Source: Elusimicrobiota bacterium
GTDB taxonomy: Bacteria; CG03; SLGR01; PWQF01
NCBI GenBank assembly: GCA_003557485.1
Contig: PWOI01000019.1
Location: 1-18,029, forward strand
Length of the DNA: 18,029 bases
Reading direction: 5' to 3'
Part shown: positions 2,302 to 14,374 of the stretch, one piece after another
How the letters are laid out: the number at the start of each line of letters is the position of its first letter
Numbering within the stretch: position 1 is the stretch's first letter
The notes under the pieces: model-generated
What the model was told of the DNA's origin: nothing
Database searches by the model: none
What the model saw: only the letters and a program-made list of their open reading frames with translations
Made by a program: the position numbers and the translations under genes

Positions 2302-3363
2302 TTATTTCCGGAGGTAAATTGGGACAGGATTAGCTTTACCTTTTACTTTTACTTCTTTGTAAAACTTAAAGTCTTCCGGTTGTTTTATGCGGGAATAGGT
2401 GGATTCGGAAACAGCCACAGTATTGACCGGGCTAATATTCTGTATACGGGAAGCTGTATTAACCACATCTCCTATAACAGTCAAATCCCTGCGGTTAACT
2501 GTACCTACAGTACCCTGTATAACTTCCCCGCTATTGATTCCTATCCGCACATTTATCTTTTCCTGATTTTTTTCTGTACGGTTTTTATTCATCTTAGAAA
2601 GAGCTCTTAAAATTTTAACCGCAGCATTAGCTGCATCATTGGCATCAATAAATATTGCCATTACAGCGTCGCCTATAAACTTATCTATATCGCCAAAGCA
2701 TTCTTTTGTTATTATCTCGCATATGCCGAAAACTTCGTTAAGCATCTGAGTGACATTTTCGGGTGAATGTTTCTCAGAATAGCCGGTAAAACCCACTATA
2801 TCCAGATATAATACGGAAAGATCTTTCTTGTGAGCTGTTGAAGCGGCATTTGAACGGGCCTCATTAAGTACATCATCATAGGTGGCAGAGGAGACATATT
2901 TTTTTATAAGCCTGTTAAATTTTTCCTGCAGTATCCTGAACTCTTCTTCCTTTGTAATATCCCTAAAAACTTCAATAGCAGCGACAATATTACCCTCCTT
3001 GTCTTTTATCGGAGCTATATGTGTCATAACGGGAAACCGTTTTTTAGATTTATGCAGCGGATATACCTTAGTTTTTATTTTCTTTCCTGTTTCAAGTGTT
3101 TTTTTCAAAGGGCAATCTGTTTTACAAATCAAATTCCCCTTTTCATCAATATGATTTAAAATATTATCCGAACAATGCTTTCCAGCAACTTCCGCTGATT
3201 TATAGCCGGTAACATCTTCAGCCCCCTTGTTCCAGAAGAGGATCTTACGATCCTTATCAACTATGTATACTCCGTCAAATATATCATTTAATAAACTTAA
3301 CGAATTTAAAGATTCTTCATTTTTATTGCGCTTACCCATACTGCTACTTCTCTTTATACTCAT
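2302..3363 (-). CDS. PAS domain - class III adenylate/guanylate cyclase
   Basis: This 353-residue soluble protein has no membrane segment. Residues ~20-137 form a PAS domain (DGVYIVDKDRKILFWNKGAEDVTGY, then a PAC-type end at FRDITKEEE). It carries a cysteine cluster C64, C80 and C84 (HCSDNIL...ICKTDCPL). Residues ~140-165 are a linker helix. Residues ~180-350 are a class III nucleotidyl cyclase catalytic domain. Expected residues are present: metal-binding D188 (YLDIVGFT) and D232 (IGDAVMAIF), base-recognition K228, D299 in VIGDVVNTASR (favouring ATP over GTP), and transition-state N302 and R306. It should therefore be active and probably makes cAMP. The frame overlaps the upstream ferritin-like gene by 20 bases. 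An alternative start at Met9 (3339), just after that gene's stop and behind GAGAAG, is about equally plausible. The two genes look translationally coupled. Confidence 0.93.
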   Translation of the reverse strand: MSIKRSSSMGKRNKNEESLNSLSLLNDIFDGVYIVDKDRKILFWNKGAEDVTGYKSAEVAGKHCSDNILNHIDEKGNLICKTDCPLKKTLETGKKIKTKVYPLHKSKKRFPVMTHIAPIKDKEGNIVAAIEVFRDITKEEEFRILQEKFNRLIKKYVSSATYDDVLNEARSNAASTAHKKDLSVLYLDIVGFTGYSEKHSPENVTQMLNEVFGICEIITKECFGDIDKFIGDAVMAIFIDANDAANAAVKILRALSKMNKNRTEKNQEKINVRIGINSGEVIQGTVGTVNRRDLTVIGDVVNTASRIQNISPVNTVAVSESTYSRIKQPEDFKFYKEVKVKGKANPVPIYLRK

Positions 3364-7662: not shown

Positions 7663-7687
7663 AAAAAAACAGAACCGTCCCTTTTTA
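7663..7687. repeat. Short direct repeat, left copy (downstream of doc)
   Basis: A run of seven A, then CAGAACCGTCCC, then T5A. It matches the copy at 8477-8501 with about four differences over 25 bases. It ends at the stop codon of the Doc-like gene, whose TAA overlaps it. On the minus strand it reads as an A-tract, AGGG-ACGG-TTCT and a T-tract, so it can also form a weak terminator-like hairpin. I recall similar GGGACGGTTCT-type sequences scattered between genes in other genomes, but could not check. Confidence 0.5.
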
Positions 7688-8107
7688 CTTTGATAGATTT
7701 TCCATATGCCTTTTTATAAAAACTGCCGCGGCATTTACGACCTCTTCTTTAAGTTCTGCCGGACTTTGAGCGACCCATATTGTAAAGTTATATAGTTCCT
7801 GGATGTCTGCTCTTAACCATTTCTTGTTTTTATATAAAAACACCATCAGAGACGTTATGGCAATACGCTTATTCCCGTTCTGAAAAGGATGGTTCTTAAT
7901 AAGAAGATAAAAAAGAACCGCTGCCTTGTTTGTTATCCCGCTATATAAGTTTTTTTTAAAAAATGTCTGGAAGGGAACAGCCAGACAGCTTTCAAGCCTG
8001 CCCGGATATCTTGTCGAAAAATCAGGTATAGGCTCATTGTATTTAAGTACTTCTTTTGCCACTCTATGCGCAATAAACTCTACATCTTTAACTGTCAGAT
8101 TTTTCAT
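7685..8107 (-). CDS. doc: Doc-type Fic-fold toxin (death-on-curing family)
   Basis: This 140-residue Fic-fold protein has the active-site motif HPFQNGNKR (73-81). It matches the Fic/Doc pattern HxFx(N/D)xNKR with the catalytic His and the phosphate-binding NKR intact. Its length, the C-terminal helices and the absence of a second GR motif fit Doc rather than AMP-transferring Fic; Doc proteins phosphorylate EF-Tu and stop translation. The start ATG 8107 lies 5 bases after the stop of the HTH gene and has no clear SD of its own, so it probably depends on coupling. That would keep toxin below antitoxin. The gene order (DNA-binding protein first, toxin second) is that of a type II toxin-antitoxin module. 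The partner is not the usual Phd-type protein. Confidence 0.9.
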   Translation of the reverse strand: MKNLTVKDVEFIAHRVAKEVLKYNEPIPDFSTRYPGRLESCLAVPFQTFFKKNLYSGITNKAAVLFYLLIKNHPFQNGNKRIAITSLMVFLYKNKKWLRADIQELYNFTIWVAQSPAELKEEVVNAAAVFIKRHMENLSK

Positions 8108-8112
8108 TAAAT

Positions 8113-8361
8113 TTATTCGTTTTGCAGAAGCTTCAGTACTTCGCCATACTCATTTACTGTTTTTTTAACAGCTTTTATAATTATATCTTTTTCTTTCGAA
8201 GTCAGATTGTTTCCCGTTATAGAGGAAAACGGAATCGCATAATTCTTACCTATTCTTATAGCTTCAATCTCACCTTTTTTTATTTTCTTATATACCGCCA
8301 CCCTGCTTATACCCAATATATCCGCAAGCTCTGTTGTTGATATATATTTTTTTTCTTTCAT
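8113..8361 (-). CDS. HTH (excisionase/MerR-like) DNA-binding protein, probable antitoxin of doc
   Basis: This is an 82-residue protein. Residues 6-47 form an excisionase-type winged helix-turn-helix (YISTTELADILGISRVAVYKKIKKGEIEAIRIG...YAIP). Residues ~54-82 form one charged C-terminal helix (SKEKDIIIKAVKKTVNEYGEVLKLL). That two-part form, DNA-binding head and toxin-binding tail, is typical of antitoxins. ATG 8361 is preceded by a strong GGAGG 9 bases upstream, in contrast with the toxin gene's weak site. The region just upstream holds three GTTAAC palindromes, a likely autoregulatory operator. I infer the antitoxin role from position. A plain Xis-like regulator left from a mobile element is the alternative. 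Confidence 0.8.
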   Translation of the reverse strand: MKEKKYISTTELADILGISRVAVYKKIKKGEIEAIRIGKNYAIPFSSITGNNLTSKEKDIIIKAVKKTVNEYGEVLKLLQNE

Positions 8362-9956: not shown

Positions 9957-9985
9957 TTGCATTTAATTTTAAAAACTGATATAAC
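9957..9985 (+). promoter_or_regulatory. Extended -10 sigma70 promoter for hydCBA
   Basis: TTGCAT (9957-9962), a 17-base spacer, then TATAAC (9980-9985), preceded by TG at 9977-9978 (TGA-TATAAC). The predicted start is near 9992. The candidate operator 10002-10021 follows directly, at about +11 to +30. Confidence 0.6.
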
Positions 9986-10001
9986 CTGCTTAAAATTCAG
10001 T

Positions 10002-10021
10002 TTTGTGAAAGATTTCACAAA
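10002..10021 (+). promoter_or_regulatory. Candidate Rex (or CRP-like) operator before hydC
   Basis: A perfect inverted repeat with core TTGTGAAA-GA-TTTCACAA (10003-10020), extended by one T/A pair on each side. It matches the Rex consensus TTGTGAAnnnnTTCACAA at every specified position. It also contains TGTGA-N6-TCACA, the CRP core. It lies downstream of the predicted transcription start and just before the ribosome site, a position typical of repressors. Rex senses NADH/NAD+ and commonly controls hydrogenase and fermentation genes, so I favour Rex. Confidence 0.65.
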
Positions 10022-10043
10022 CAGTTTAAGGATATTAAAAACA

Positions 10044-10517
10044 ATGGTAAAAACAGGTGAATTAAAGAAAATAGTCTCCAAGTGGAAGGATAAGGAAGGA
10101 AACCTTATAATGGTCTTCCATGAAATACAGAACAGGTACGGGTATGTGCCAAGAGATGTTTCCATGAAGCTTTCCGAAATGCTTGATGTTCCCCTTGCCC
10201 GTATATATGAAGTACTGACCTTCTACAACTATTTCGACCTGAAACCGCCGGGTAAACATACAATTTCAATATGTATGGGCACAGCATGTTATCTTAAAGG
10301 GGCAAACGAATTACTGAAAAAATTCAGAGATCTTCTCAATGTCAGCGAAGGCGAAACTACACAGGACGGACTCTTTAAATTAAATGTTGTGCGGTGCCTG
10401 GGATGCTGCGGCCTGGCCCCTGTTGTAACCATAGATGAAGACGTTTACGGAAAAGTCCAAAAAGAGGATATTCCAGATATTCTTGCAAAATATGCCGTAA
10501 AGGAAAAAAATGCATAA
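10044..10517 (+). CDS. hydC: NuoE-like [2Fe-2S] subunit HydC of bifurcating-type [FeFe]-hydrogenase
   Basis: This is a 157-residue thioredoxin-like [2Fe-2S] protein of the NuoE/24-kDa family. The N-terminal three-helix part (FHEIQNRYGYVPRDVSMKLSEMLDVPLARIYEVLTFYNYF) is followed by the ferredoxin domain with the cluster ligands in CMGTAC (CX4C) and CLGCC (CX3C). It would pass electrons between the flavin subunit HydB and the rest of the complex. I start it at ATG 10044, behind AAGGA at 10028-10032. An in-frame TTG at 9957 would add 29 residues unlike the family and would overlap the promoter and operator. Its stop overlaps the start of hydB by 8 bases. The order C-B-A is that of the Thermotoga hydrogenase operon. 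Confidence 0.95.
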   Translation: MVKTGELKKIVSKWKDKEGNLIMVFHEIQNRYGYVPRDVSMKLSEMLDVPLARIYEVLTFYNYFDLKPPGKHTISICMGTACYLKGANELLKKFRDLLNVSEGETTQDGLFKLNVVRCLGCCGLAPVVTIDEDVYGKVQKEDIPDILAKYAVKEKNA

Positions 10518-12615
10518 ATCACTGAAAAAAATTGATGAAATACGCCACTGCAGGAAGCAGGACAGTCTTAAGGAAACTATTATTGTAGGAATGAACAGCT
10601 GCGGGATTGCCGCAGGCGCGCGTGAAGTCTACAACATACTTGAAGAGGAAATAAAAAAAGGCGGCCTTGATATCGTACTTAAAAAAAGCGGATGCCTCGG
10701 AGCCTGCTACGCCGAGCCCCTTGTAGAAGTACTGGCAGAGGGGATGCCCGGTATCGTTTACTGTAATATAGATAAATCAAACGCTTCAAAAATAATATCA
10801 AGACATTTCCGGAGCGGTGAAATTCTGCAAAACAATGTCTATTCTTTTTCAGAAGGCCTGTCACCTAAAAAAAACAGAAGGAAATTCATATTCATAAAAG
10901 ACACTGACTGCAGCAGTTCCGATAAGGAAGATGAGTACACCGAGCTTTTCCTGCAGGAGATAATAAAAACTGAATCCTCAAGCATGGTACATGCCGCAAA
11001 AACTGAAGTGATCAGTCTCTACAACAAAGGCATTGCGGTAAAGATCTGGCCTGACAATATTGTTTATGCCGGTATAAAAAAGACAGATATACCCCGGATA
11101 TTAAAAAAGACAGTTGAAGGAACACAAATTGACAGCCTTATCCATAAGGCAGGCACTGAAAAATACCCCCAGATAGTTATGAGAAACTGCGGCAGGGTTA
11201 ATCCTGAAGATATAGAAGACTACATAGGAAGAGGCGGCTATACCGCCCTGGAAAAAGTCGCCGGAGGCATGACCGGAGAAGAAATAATAAAAGAACTGAA
11301 GGTTTCCGGCATAAGAGGACGGGGAGGCGGGGGTTACCCCACATGGCAAAAATGGCAGTTCGCCCGGGATGCGCAGGGTAAAACTAAATATATAATATGT
11401 AATGCCGATGAGGGAGATCCCGGCGCATATATGGATAGAAGTGTTCTAGAAGGAGACCCTCACTCCATACTTGAAGGTATGATTCTTGCCGGAGCTGCAA
11501 CAGGAGCAACTAAAGGATTTGTCTATATAAGAGCCGAGTACCCCCTGGCCATTAAAAGAGTTTACAGGGCAATTGAGCAAGCCGAAAAATACGGAATTCT
11601 CGGAAAAAAAATATTTGGAACACATTTAAACTTTGATGTTGAAGTCAGGCTTGGCGCCGGCGCTTTTGTATGCGGCGAAGAAACTGCTCTTATAGCATCC
11701 ATTGAGGGGGAGCGCGGCACACCCAGGCCAAGGCCTCCCTACCCTTCCGTAAAGGGGCTGTGGAATAATCCTACTGTTATAAACAATGTTGAAACTCTGG
11801 CAAATATTCCGGAAATAATAGCCAGAGGCGGAAAATGGTTCTCTTCATTCGGAACAAAAAATTCAAAAGGCACAAAAGTTTTTGCCCTCACGGGCAAGGT
11901 AAGAAATTCCGGTCTGGTTGAAGTCCCAATGGGAATTACTCTCAAGGAGATAGTCTTTAACCTGGGCGGCGGGCTGGGTTCAGGCAAGAAAATAAAAGCA
12001 GTTCAGACAGGCGGGCCTTCGGGAGGAGTCATTCCTGTTAAGCATCTTGATACACCCGTTGATTATGATAGTCTCCATAAGCTCGGATCAATAATGGGTT
12101 CAGGCGGAATGATTGTAATGGATGAAGATGACTGCATGGTTGATGTCTCCAAGTTTTATCTCAGATTCTGCGTGGATGAATCCTGCGGAAAATGCGTTCC
12201 CTGCCGTATAGGAGGATTTCAGCTCCTGGATATACTGAGCCGTATTACCCACGGTAAAGGGAATGATGATGATATAGAAAAAATAAAGAGGATCTCCCAT
12301 ACGCTCATAAAAGCATCGCTCTGCGGGCTGGGGCAGACTGCTCCTAACCCGGTAATCTCCACCCTTAATTATTTCAAGGAAGAATATATTGAGCATATAA
12401 ACAAAAAGAAGTGCCGGTCCGGCGTATGCCACGAACTTCTCGATTACAGTATTGATCAGAACCCCTGTAGAAAATGTGACCTGTGCGCCCGGACTTGCCC
12501 GGTAGGCGCCATATCCGGAAACAGAGACGAGGGGTATAAAATAGACCCTGTTAAATGCATAAAGTGCGGGGAATGTTTTGAAGTATGTAAGTTCGGAGCG
12601 GTAATAAAGAAATAG
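10510..12615 (+). CDS. hydB: NuoF-like flavin/NAD(H) subunit HydB with an extra thioredoxin-like domain
   Basis: This 701-residue protein is longer than the usual ~600-630. Residues ~20-110 are a thioredoxin-like [2Fe-2S] domain (C31, C62, C66). Residues ~122-213 look like a second, degenerate copy (see findings). From ~220 on comes the NuoF core: GRGGGGYPT (270-278), NADEGDPGAYMDRSVLEGDPH (298-318) for FMN and NADH, GAGAFVCGEETALIASIEG (382-400), and the [4Fe-4S] ligands C559, C562, C565 and C605. The C-terminal bacterial ferredoxin part has two CX2CX2CX3C sets: C653-C663 and C683-C693. It is the NAD(H)-binding, probably bifurcating, subunit in the cytoplasm. ATG 10510 overlaps the hydC stop and follows AAAGG. 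hydA begins 1 base after its stop. Confidence 0.95.
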   Translation: MHKSLKKIDEIRHCRKQDSLKETIIVGMNSCGIAAGAREVYNILEEEIKKGGLDIVLKKSGCLGACYAEPLVEVLAEGMPGIVYCNIDKSNASKIISRHFRSGEILQNNVYSFSEGLSPKKNRRKFIFIKDTDCSSSDKEDEYTELFLQEIIKTESSSMVHAAKTEVISLYNKGIAVKIWPDNIVYAGIKKTDIPRILKKTVEGTQIDSLIHKAGTEKYPQIVMRNCGRVNPEDIEDYIGRGGYTALEKVAGGMTGEEIIKELKVSGIRGRGGGGYPTWQKWQFARDAQGKTKYIICNADEGDPGAYMDRSVLEGDPHSILEGMILAGAATGATKGFVYIRAEYPLAIKRVYRAIEQAEKYGILGKKIFGTHLNFDVEVRLGAGAFVCGEETALIASIEGERGTPRPRPPYPSVKGLWNNPTVINNVETLANIPEIIARGGKWFSSFGTKNSKGTKVFALTGKVRNSGLVEVPMGITLKEIVFNLGGGLGSGKKIKAVQTGGPSGGVIPVKHLDTPVDYDSLHKLGSIMGSGGMIVMDEDDCMVDVSKFYLRFCVDESCGKCVPCRIGGFQLLDILSRITHGKGNDDDIEKIKRISHTLIKASLCGLGQTAPNPVISTLNYFKEEYIEHINKKKCRSGVCHELLDYSIDQNPCRKCDLCARTCPVGAISGNRDEGYKIDPVKCIKCGECFEVCKFGAVIKK

Positions 12616-12616
12616 A

Positions 12617-14374
12617 ATGAAAAACAAAAAGATAAAAGCAAAAATAGCCGGAATAGAAGTCAATGTAAAAGAAGGGACCACTATTCTTGAGGCGGCCAAA
12701 ACTGTGCATATCGGAATACCTACTCTATGCAAGCACGCTGACCTTCCACCCACAGCAGGGTGCGGAATATGCGTTGTTAAAATAAAGGGTTCGCCCAAAA
12801 TGCTCAGAGCCTGCTGCACTCCGCTGGAAAACGGAATGGATATAATAACCCAGGACCCGGAGTTGGTGGAAGTCAGAAGGACAATTCTGGAACTGATTCT
12901 TTCAAATCATCCCAACGACTGTCTTAAATGCGGCAGAAACAACAACTGTGAACTTCAGACTCTTGCAGGAGATTTCGGAATAAGAGAAGATTCTTTTGAA
13001 AAACTTCTGAGAAATCTTCCCGAGGATAAATCGACAAAAACAATAGAATTGATCCCCCAGAAATGCATCCTCTGCGGACGCTGCACAAATGTATGCCAGC
13101 AAATACAGGATGTATGGGCCCTTTCCTTTCTTGAAAGGGGGTTTTATACCAGAATATCCGCTACCGGCGACATAGAGCTTGCCGAGTCTCCCTGCATAAA
13201 GTGCGGCCAGTGCAGTGCCCACTGCCCCACAGGAGCCATATTTGAATATGATGAGACACAGAAGGTCTGGGATGCCCTTATGGATCCCGACAGATTCTGC
13301 GTAGTTCAGATTGCTCCCGCTGTGCGTGTCGGCATAGGAGAGGAATTTGGTTATCCGCCGGGAACAAACCTTACTCATAAACTCTATGCTATGCTTAAGA
13401 GAATCGGGTTCCGCGGCGTCTTCGATACCAGTTTCGCCGCTGACGTAACCATAATGGAAGAGGCGACAGAATTTAAAAGAAAATTTGAGAAAGACAAAAA
13501 AAATCTTCCTCTCATAACATCCTGCTGCCCTGCCTGGGTAGATTTTATGGAAAAATACTACCCTGATATGATAGAACATTTTTCTTCCTGCAAATCTCCC
13601 CATCAGATACTGGGAGTGCTCTCAAAAACTTACTATGCAGAGAAGAATGGAATAGACCCCTCTAAAATATTTATGGTCTCTATTATGCCCTGTACTTCAA
13701 AAAAGTATGAGATAACACGAAGCAGTGAGATGTCATCATCGGGATATCCGGATATTGATGTTGTACTTACCACACGGGAACTTGGGAGAATGATAAAACA
13801 GGCGGATATAAGGTTTAAGCATCTTCCCGGAGAAGATCCCGACAACATCCTTGGAGAGTATACGGGAGCAGGGGTAATTTTCGGCACTACCGGCGGCGTT
13901 ATGGAAGCGGCGCTGCGTACTGCTTATAAAATGATAACAGGGGAAAAACTGAAAGACCTTGAAATTAAAAAAGTCAGGGGACTGAAGGGAATAAAAGAAG
14001 CGACACTGGATATTAAAGGGACAAAAGTTAAGGCTGCCATTGCCCACGGTATGGGAAACGTAGGTACAGTACTGGAAAAAATACGAGAAGCCAAAAAAGC
14101 AAAAAAAGAAACCCCCTACCACTTCATTGAAGTAATGGCCTGCCCGGGAGGATGCGTGGGAGGAGGAGGCCAGCCCTACGGAGTCAACAATGAACTTCGC
14201 CAGAAAAGAGCAGCGGGACTCTACTCTGATGACCGCGGCCATAAAGTCAGGTGCTCCCACGATAATCCGTACGTCAAAGAGCTTTATAAAAAGTTCCTGG
14301 GAAAACCTCTAAGCGAAAAAGCTGAAAAGCTTCTTCATAATAAATACAAAAAACGCCCTGTATACAAAAGATAA
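12617..14374 (+). CDS. hydA: [FeFe]-hydrogenase catalytic subunit HydA
   Basis: This 585-residue enzyme makes or splits H2 at the H-cluster. N-terminal clusters are a plant-type [2Fe-2S] domain (C38, C49, C52, C66 or C67), the HX3CX2CX5C site (H98, C102, C105, C111) and two [4Fe-4S] sites (C150-C160, C193-C203). The H-domain has all three signatures: TSCCPAW (301-307), MPCTSKKYE (357-365) and EVMACPGGCVGGGGQP (505-520). Ligands are C304, C359, C509 and C513, and C303 is the expected proton-transfer cysteine, so it should be active. It lacks the extra C-terminal [2Fe-2S] domain of Thermotoga HydA. Together with HydB and HydC this points to a group A3 NAD-linked, possibly bifurcating, enzyme. 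The maturases HydE, HydF and HydG are not in the window. Confidence 0.97.
   Translation: MKNKKIKAKIAGIEVNVKEGTTILEAAKTVHIGIPTLCKHADLPPTAGCGICVVKIKGSPKMLRACCTPLENGMDIITQDPELVEVRRTILELILSNHPNDCLKCGRNNNCELQTLAGDFGIREDSFEKLLRNLPEDKSTKTIELIPQKCILCGRCTNVCQQIQDVWALSFLERGFYTRISATGDIELAESPCIKCGQCSAHCPTGAIFEYDETQKVWDALMDPDRFCVVQIAPAVRVGIGEEFGYPPGTNLTHKLYAMLKRIGFRGVFDTSFAADVTIMEEATEFKRKFEKDKKNLPLITSCCPAWVDFMEKYYPDMIEHFSSCKSPHQILGVLSKTYYAEKNGIDPSKIFMVSIMPCTSKKYEITRSSEMSSSGYPDIDVVLTTRELGRMIKQADIRFKHLPGEDPDNILGEYTGAGVIFGTTGGVMEAALRTAYKMITGEKLKDLEIKKVRGLKGIKEATLDIKGTKVKAAIAHGMGNVGTVLEKIREAKKAKKETPYHFIEVMACPGGCVGGGGQPYGVNNELRQKRAAGLYSDDRGHKVRCSHDNPYVKELYKKFLGKPLSEKAEKLLHNKYKKRPVYKR

Follow-up and report, generated by a model that had tools for sequence, protein, structure and literature searches.

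The window analyzed here (18,029 nt of a contig from an Elusimicrobiota bacterium) contains a palindrome between the promoter and the first gene of a hydrogenase operon, which raises the question of which regulator, if any, recognizes it. The 18-mer TTGTGAAAGATTTCACAA at positions 10003 to 10020 is a perfect palindrome except for the two central bases, and a flanking T and A lengthen it to a 20-bp palindrome at 10002 to 10021, a predicted Rex operator that has no strand of its own. The 18-mer agrees with the Rex consensus TTGTGAA-N4-TTCACAA (as quoted in PMC5317091, PMC8376106, and PMC13077300) at every specified base, with 0 mismatches. It also includes TGTGA-N6-TCACA, which is quoted as the S. 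aureus Rex consensus (PMC8376106) and is, at the same time, the CRP core; therefore, the bases alone do not decide between the two regulators.

By direct reading, the hydC promoter consists of a -35 element, TTGCAT (9957 to 9962, forward strand), and an extended -10 element, TGA-TATAAC (9977 to 9985, with the hexamer at 9980 to 9985, forward strand), with a spacer of 17 nt. A congener of the source organism (G001) has TTGCAA as its -35 element and an identical extended -10. This promoter was not listed by the consensus promoter scan because that scan accepts only T as the sixth base of a -10 hexamer. Read from the promoter, transcription is predicted to start near position 9992, which puts the 20-mer, located past the extended -10 and before the hydC start (10044), at about +11 to +30. 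A likely Shine-Dalgarno sequence, AAGGA, is found by direct reading at 10028 to 10032 on the forward strand.

The operon consists of three forward-strand genes. The hydC gene (10044 to 10517) encodes a NuoE-like thioredoxin-fold [2Fe-2S] subunit of 157 aa, identified from its translation and a PF01257 match of 168 bits. The product of hydB (10510 to 12615; 701 aa) is a NuoF-like FMN/NADH-binding subunit with C-terminal ferredoxin domains, matched by PF01512, PF10589, and TIGR01959, the last below that model's cutoff. The hydA gene (12617 to 14374; 585 aa) encodes the catalytic [FeFe] hydrogenase subunit, which scores 794 bits, versus a cutoff of 765, with NF040763, a curated model of the NADH-dependent group A6 [FeFe] hydrogenase; its closest relative, with 91% identity, comes from a MAG labeled Elusimicrobia bacterium CSSed10_282R1. 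The HydA score and the NuoE- and NuoF-like partners identify the product as an NADH-dependent group A6 [FeFe] hydrogenase (HydABC). The initial annotation, made from the letters of the window, had thus been right about the coordinates of the palindrome, its agreement with the Rex consensus, its position relative to the promoter, and the NAD-linked nature of the genes behind it.

A search for rex and for crp/fnr homologues, as the initial annotation had proposed, found one of each in the genome. The single clear Rex (207 aa) combines a winged-helix N-terminal domain (PF06971, Put_DNA-bind_N, 53 bits, above the cutoff) with a Rossmann NAD(H)-binding domain (PF02629, above the cutoff), both assigned by profile matches, and scores 223 bits with NF003995, versus a cutoff of 126. 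It aligns with solved Rex structures, including 3IKV/3IKT, with an E value of about 1e-44. The aligned stretches include the Rossmann motif GAGNLG and the recognition helix TSSQIRRDL, which lies opposite TAFQVRKDL of T-Rex. The rex gene is located on a different contig than hydCBA, as the first gene of a [NiFe] operon.

Exact matches to TTGTGAAANNTTTCACAA are found only twice in 2.07 Mb, once before hydCBA and once before hydG, compared with 0.0011 to 0.0013 expected from base and dinucleotide models (the G+C content, measured over 122 kb of the genome, is 44%). A reversed-motif control yielded no match with 0 or 1 mismatch in the same genome. With up to 3 mismatches, there are 29 sites versus 16 for the reversed control; therefore, the weaker matches are mostly noise, and the 3-mismatch sites lie mostly inside genes. 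One 2-mismatch site, at C124:6599, lies in AT-rich DNA upstream of an AAA_14/DUF4143 gene and was put down to chance. A 3-mismatch site at L228:1488-1505 (G000:C127:11487) lies 13 nt before a gene, named by eye, for a glycolate oxidase/D-lactate dehydrogenase-like protein; this gene is a possible but weak candidate for an extra regulon member.

The second exact site is found 12 nt before hydG (TIGR03955, 531 bits), which is followed on its contig by hydE, hydF, and genes for another NuoE-like subunit, a NuoF-GltD-like fusion, and another HydA of group A6, with overlaps or close spacing throughout. In this second [FeFe] hydrogenase (L182:6685-9819, G000:C164), the fusion subunit has 1044 aa, which suggests an additional pyridine-nucleotide site. 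The best credible site after the two exact ones has 2 mismatches and touches the start codon of rex itself. There, rex heads a membrane-bound [NiFe]-hydrogenase-type operon (L181:1-8495, G000:C93), in which it is followed by genes for sulfhydrogenase-like beta and gamma subunits (NAD-linked), a ferredoxin, NuoH-, NuoB-, NuoC-, and NuoD/[NiFe]-like subunits, and Mrp-type membrane subunits. The NuoD/[NiFe]-like subunit contains two CxxC motifs (CGIC and CYCC), and the gene order of the rex-headed operon is kept in five genera. Thus, the three best-supported sites stand at the heads of the three hydrogenase operons identified in the genome. In all three promoters (hydC, hydG, and rex), as read directly from the sequence together with their starts, the operator lies downstream of the -10-like hexamer and begins 11 to 17 nt past it. 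The inner A7-A8/T11-T12 pairs are nearly invariant over ten sites.

Taken with the recurrence of the motif in related genomes, described below, these data support the Rex reading of the initial annotation: the palindrome is very probably an operator of the genome's own Rex, from which we infer Rex binding, repression of hydCBA, and a response of this repression to NADH. Rex proteins are on DNA at a low NADH/NAD+ ratio and come off when NADH is bound (PMC13077300, PMC8376106). At a low ratio, a Rex dimer would occupy positions +11 to +30 or so, just beyond the -10, and block initiation or early elongation at hydCBA. As NADH builds up, NADH-bound Rex would leave the DNA, and the NADH-linked hydrogenase would be made, evolving H2 and thereby reoxidizing NADH. 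The same Rex is predicted to control also hydGEF with the second [FeFe] hydrogenase, as well as its own operon, which encodes the membrane-bound [NiFe]-hydrogenase-type complex with its NAD-linked module, so that expression of the three hydrogenase operons would go up and down in step. We see about even chances that Rex is a dedicated hydrogenase switch, repressing two [FeFe] hydrogenases with their maturases, the rex-headed membrane [NiFe] complex, and little else.

Conservation of the site was assessed in 98 genomes, 8 from the order of the window's genome (that genome, G000, included) and 90 others. Eight exact sites are found in 6 of the 8 genomes of the order, and none in the 90 more distant genomes. 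Seven of the eight precede hydC (G000 and G001), hydG (G000, G001, and G005), or rex (G002 and G004). The eighth (L189:2102-2119, G003:C233) is located 54 nt before a gene for an ABC-type substrate-binding protein with no evident NADH link. G003 has a one-mismatch site at hydG, and rex of G005 carries the same two-mismatch 18-mer as the window's genome, on the opposite strand, with the two Rex proteins 55% identical. Overall, the hydG site is kept in three genera and the rex site in four; in the relatives with sites, Rex is 52 to 56% and HydG 64 to 85% identical. At both hydC and hydG, G000 and G001 have the -35, the -10, and the operator in common while the flanks have diverged, leaving a footprint; the 18-mer at hydC is identical in the two.

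Absence of the motif upstream of hydCBA in relatives had been named in the initial annotation as evidence against Rex, and the outcome is mixed: the site is retained in the congener G001 but is not found at hydC in G003, G005, and G007, which represent other genera of the order. Rex control of hydCBA is therefore not conserved across the order, and the hydCBA site appears to be genus specific, either gained in this genus or lost elsewhere. G003 and G005 nevertheless keep the site at hydG, and G005 also keeps it at rex. Upstream of hydC in G005 there is a match with 5 mismatches, but it was discarded because its TTGACAA half, by direct reading, resembles a -35 element. In G003, hydC is located 54 nt behind a LarE-like gene and may share its promoter, and no site is found within 300 nt of rex. 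No rex gene was found in G001 despite its two exact sites; this assembly is 82% complete, and the missing gene probably reflects that incompleteness. In G006 and G007 (66% and 84% complete), rex was not detected, and there is no exact or one-mismatch site.

The genome's CRP-family protein has a clear HTH (recognition helix SREVISRIL) and a cNMP domain with GE...RSA. With both proteins encoded and their cores overlapping fully in the hydC site, Rex could be the main regulator and yet, in certain conditions, face competition from the CRP-family protein for this palindrome. Such dual control is quite improbable: no other CRP-type site turned up in the vicinity of hydC, and the CRP-type motif of this genome is a different one. 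Even less probable is the cAMP link that the initial annotation had offered as an alternative, in which a CRP/FNR-family regulator binds the hydC site and ties hydCBA to cAMP, for which the PAS-cyclase 7 kb away is a possible source. Its ingredients are present, namely, the core TGTGA-N6-TCACA and a PAS protein with an adenylate/guanylate cyclase domain (Guanylate_cyc, PF00211, 97 bits; window positions 2302 to 3363, reverse strand), but the position of the operator argues against it. Past the -10 is where repressor operators lie and where a CRP-type activator would not be expected to function, and the hydC site is not upstream of the -35, as an activator site would be. The motif argues against it as well. 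The genome's CRP-type palindromes, GTGAC-N4-GTCAC, differ from the hyd sites in both sequence and position: their inner C/G is missing from the hyd sites, which instead keep AAA..TTT inside; the A7-A8/T11-T12 pairs are free in a CRP site. In addition, the hyd motif is found at rex itself, and none of the genomes of the phylum in which rex was not detected has an exact site, except G001. CRP control of hydCBA is thus unlikely.

In a genome scan with the CRP core, several one-mismatch matches that were inspected lie inside genes, and most of the intergenic ones belong to the GTGAC-N4-GTCAC family. This motif has 5 exact matches in the genome, versus 1 for the control, all intergenic (L215-L218 and L220: G000:C104:14915, C106:6468, C140:3091 and 3169, and C145:96), with a near match at C4:3168. 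Three of the sites are located 65 to 75 nt before genes whose products look secreted and were judged by eye to be FecR-, kelch-, or PKD-like. In G001, G003, and G004, too, the motif stands upstream of FecR-like genes, and G004 has seven copies of it. The CRP-family regulator may bind these palindromes. Finally, the palindrome could form a short RNA hairpin, but the reading that it arose by chance or is merely structural (in the 5' leader, for example) and has no protein partner is the least probable of all, given two exact matches, both before hydrogenase operons, against about 0.001 expected, the conservation of palindrome and promoter between diverged flanks, and the near-identical site at the regulator's own gene.

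Control of hydrogenases by Rex is a well-known mechanism in thermophilic Bacillota. In gel shifts, Rex of Caldicellulosiruptor bescii binds before FeFe hydrogenase genes, hydG, an Ech-type NiFe hydrogenase, and rex (Sander et al., PMC6391272). The set predicted here from sequence is the same, although the C. bescii regulon also includes POR, GOR, pta-ackA, and others. The NiFe operon of C. bescii has its site 45 bp before the start, which points to activation (PMC8579813), whereas the NiFe operon here begins with rex and has its site past the -10. Similarly, the trimeric NAD-linked [FeFe] hydrogenase of Caldithrix abyssi is placed under a Rex site, cTGTGAATCAATTCACAt, which is likewise only predicted (PMC5317091); there, however, rex is upstream within the hydABC operon, whereas here it accompanies the NiFe operon on a separate contig. 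As far as the description of Ravcheev et al. 2012 in PMC5886521 goes, the predicted Rex regulon of Thermoanaerobacterales shares hydG and echABCDEF members with this one but has a motif of the TTGTTA-N6-TAACAA type and includes alcohol dehydrogenases. Rex control of hydrogenases is thus already known, and what is new is its occurrence in this uncultured lineage, which gains a testable redox circuit in which the capacity for H2 evolution would follow NADH/NAD+ by way of a single repressor. The rex-first [NiFe] operon and a small hydrogenase-only regulon could help to predict when H2 is produced or consumed by such organisms.

Across phyla, 66 hydCBA loci have 900 nt or more of upstream sequence, and 17 of them include a rex homologue, in the orders rex-hydC and hydCBA-rex or divergently. 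The hydCBA-rex order is found in three MAGs labeled Firestonebacteria, two of which have a near match, TTGTGAAAAGCGTCACAT or TTGTGAAAATCGTCACAT, 26 to 27 nt before hydC. Elsewhere in the window, on the reverse strand at 7685 to 8361, a Fic/Doc-like protein (HPFQNGNKR) is encoded beside a small helix-turn-helix protein, an arrangement that, read from the sequence, resembles a toxin-antitoxin pair.
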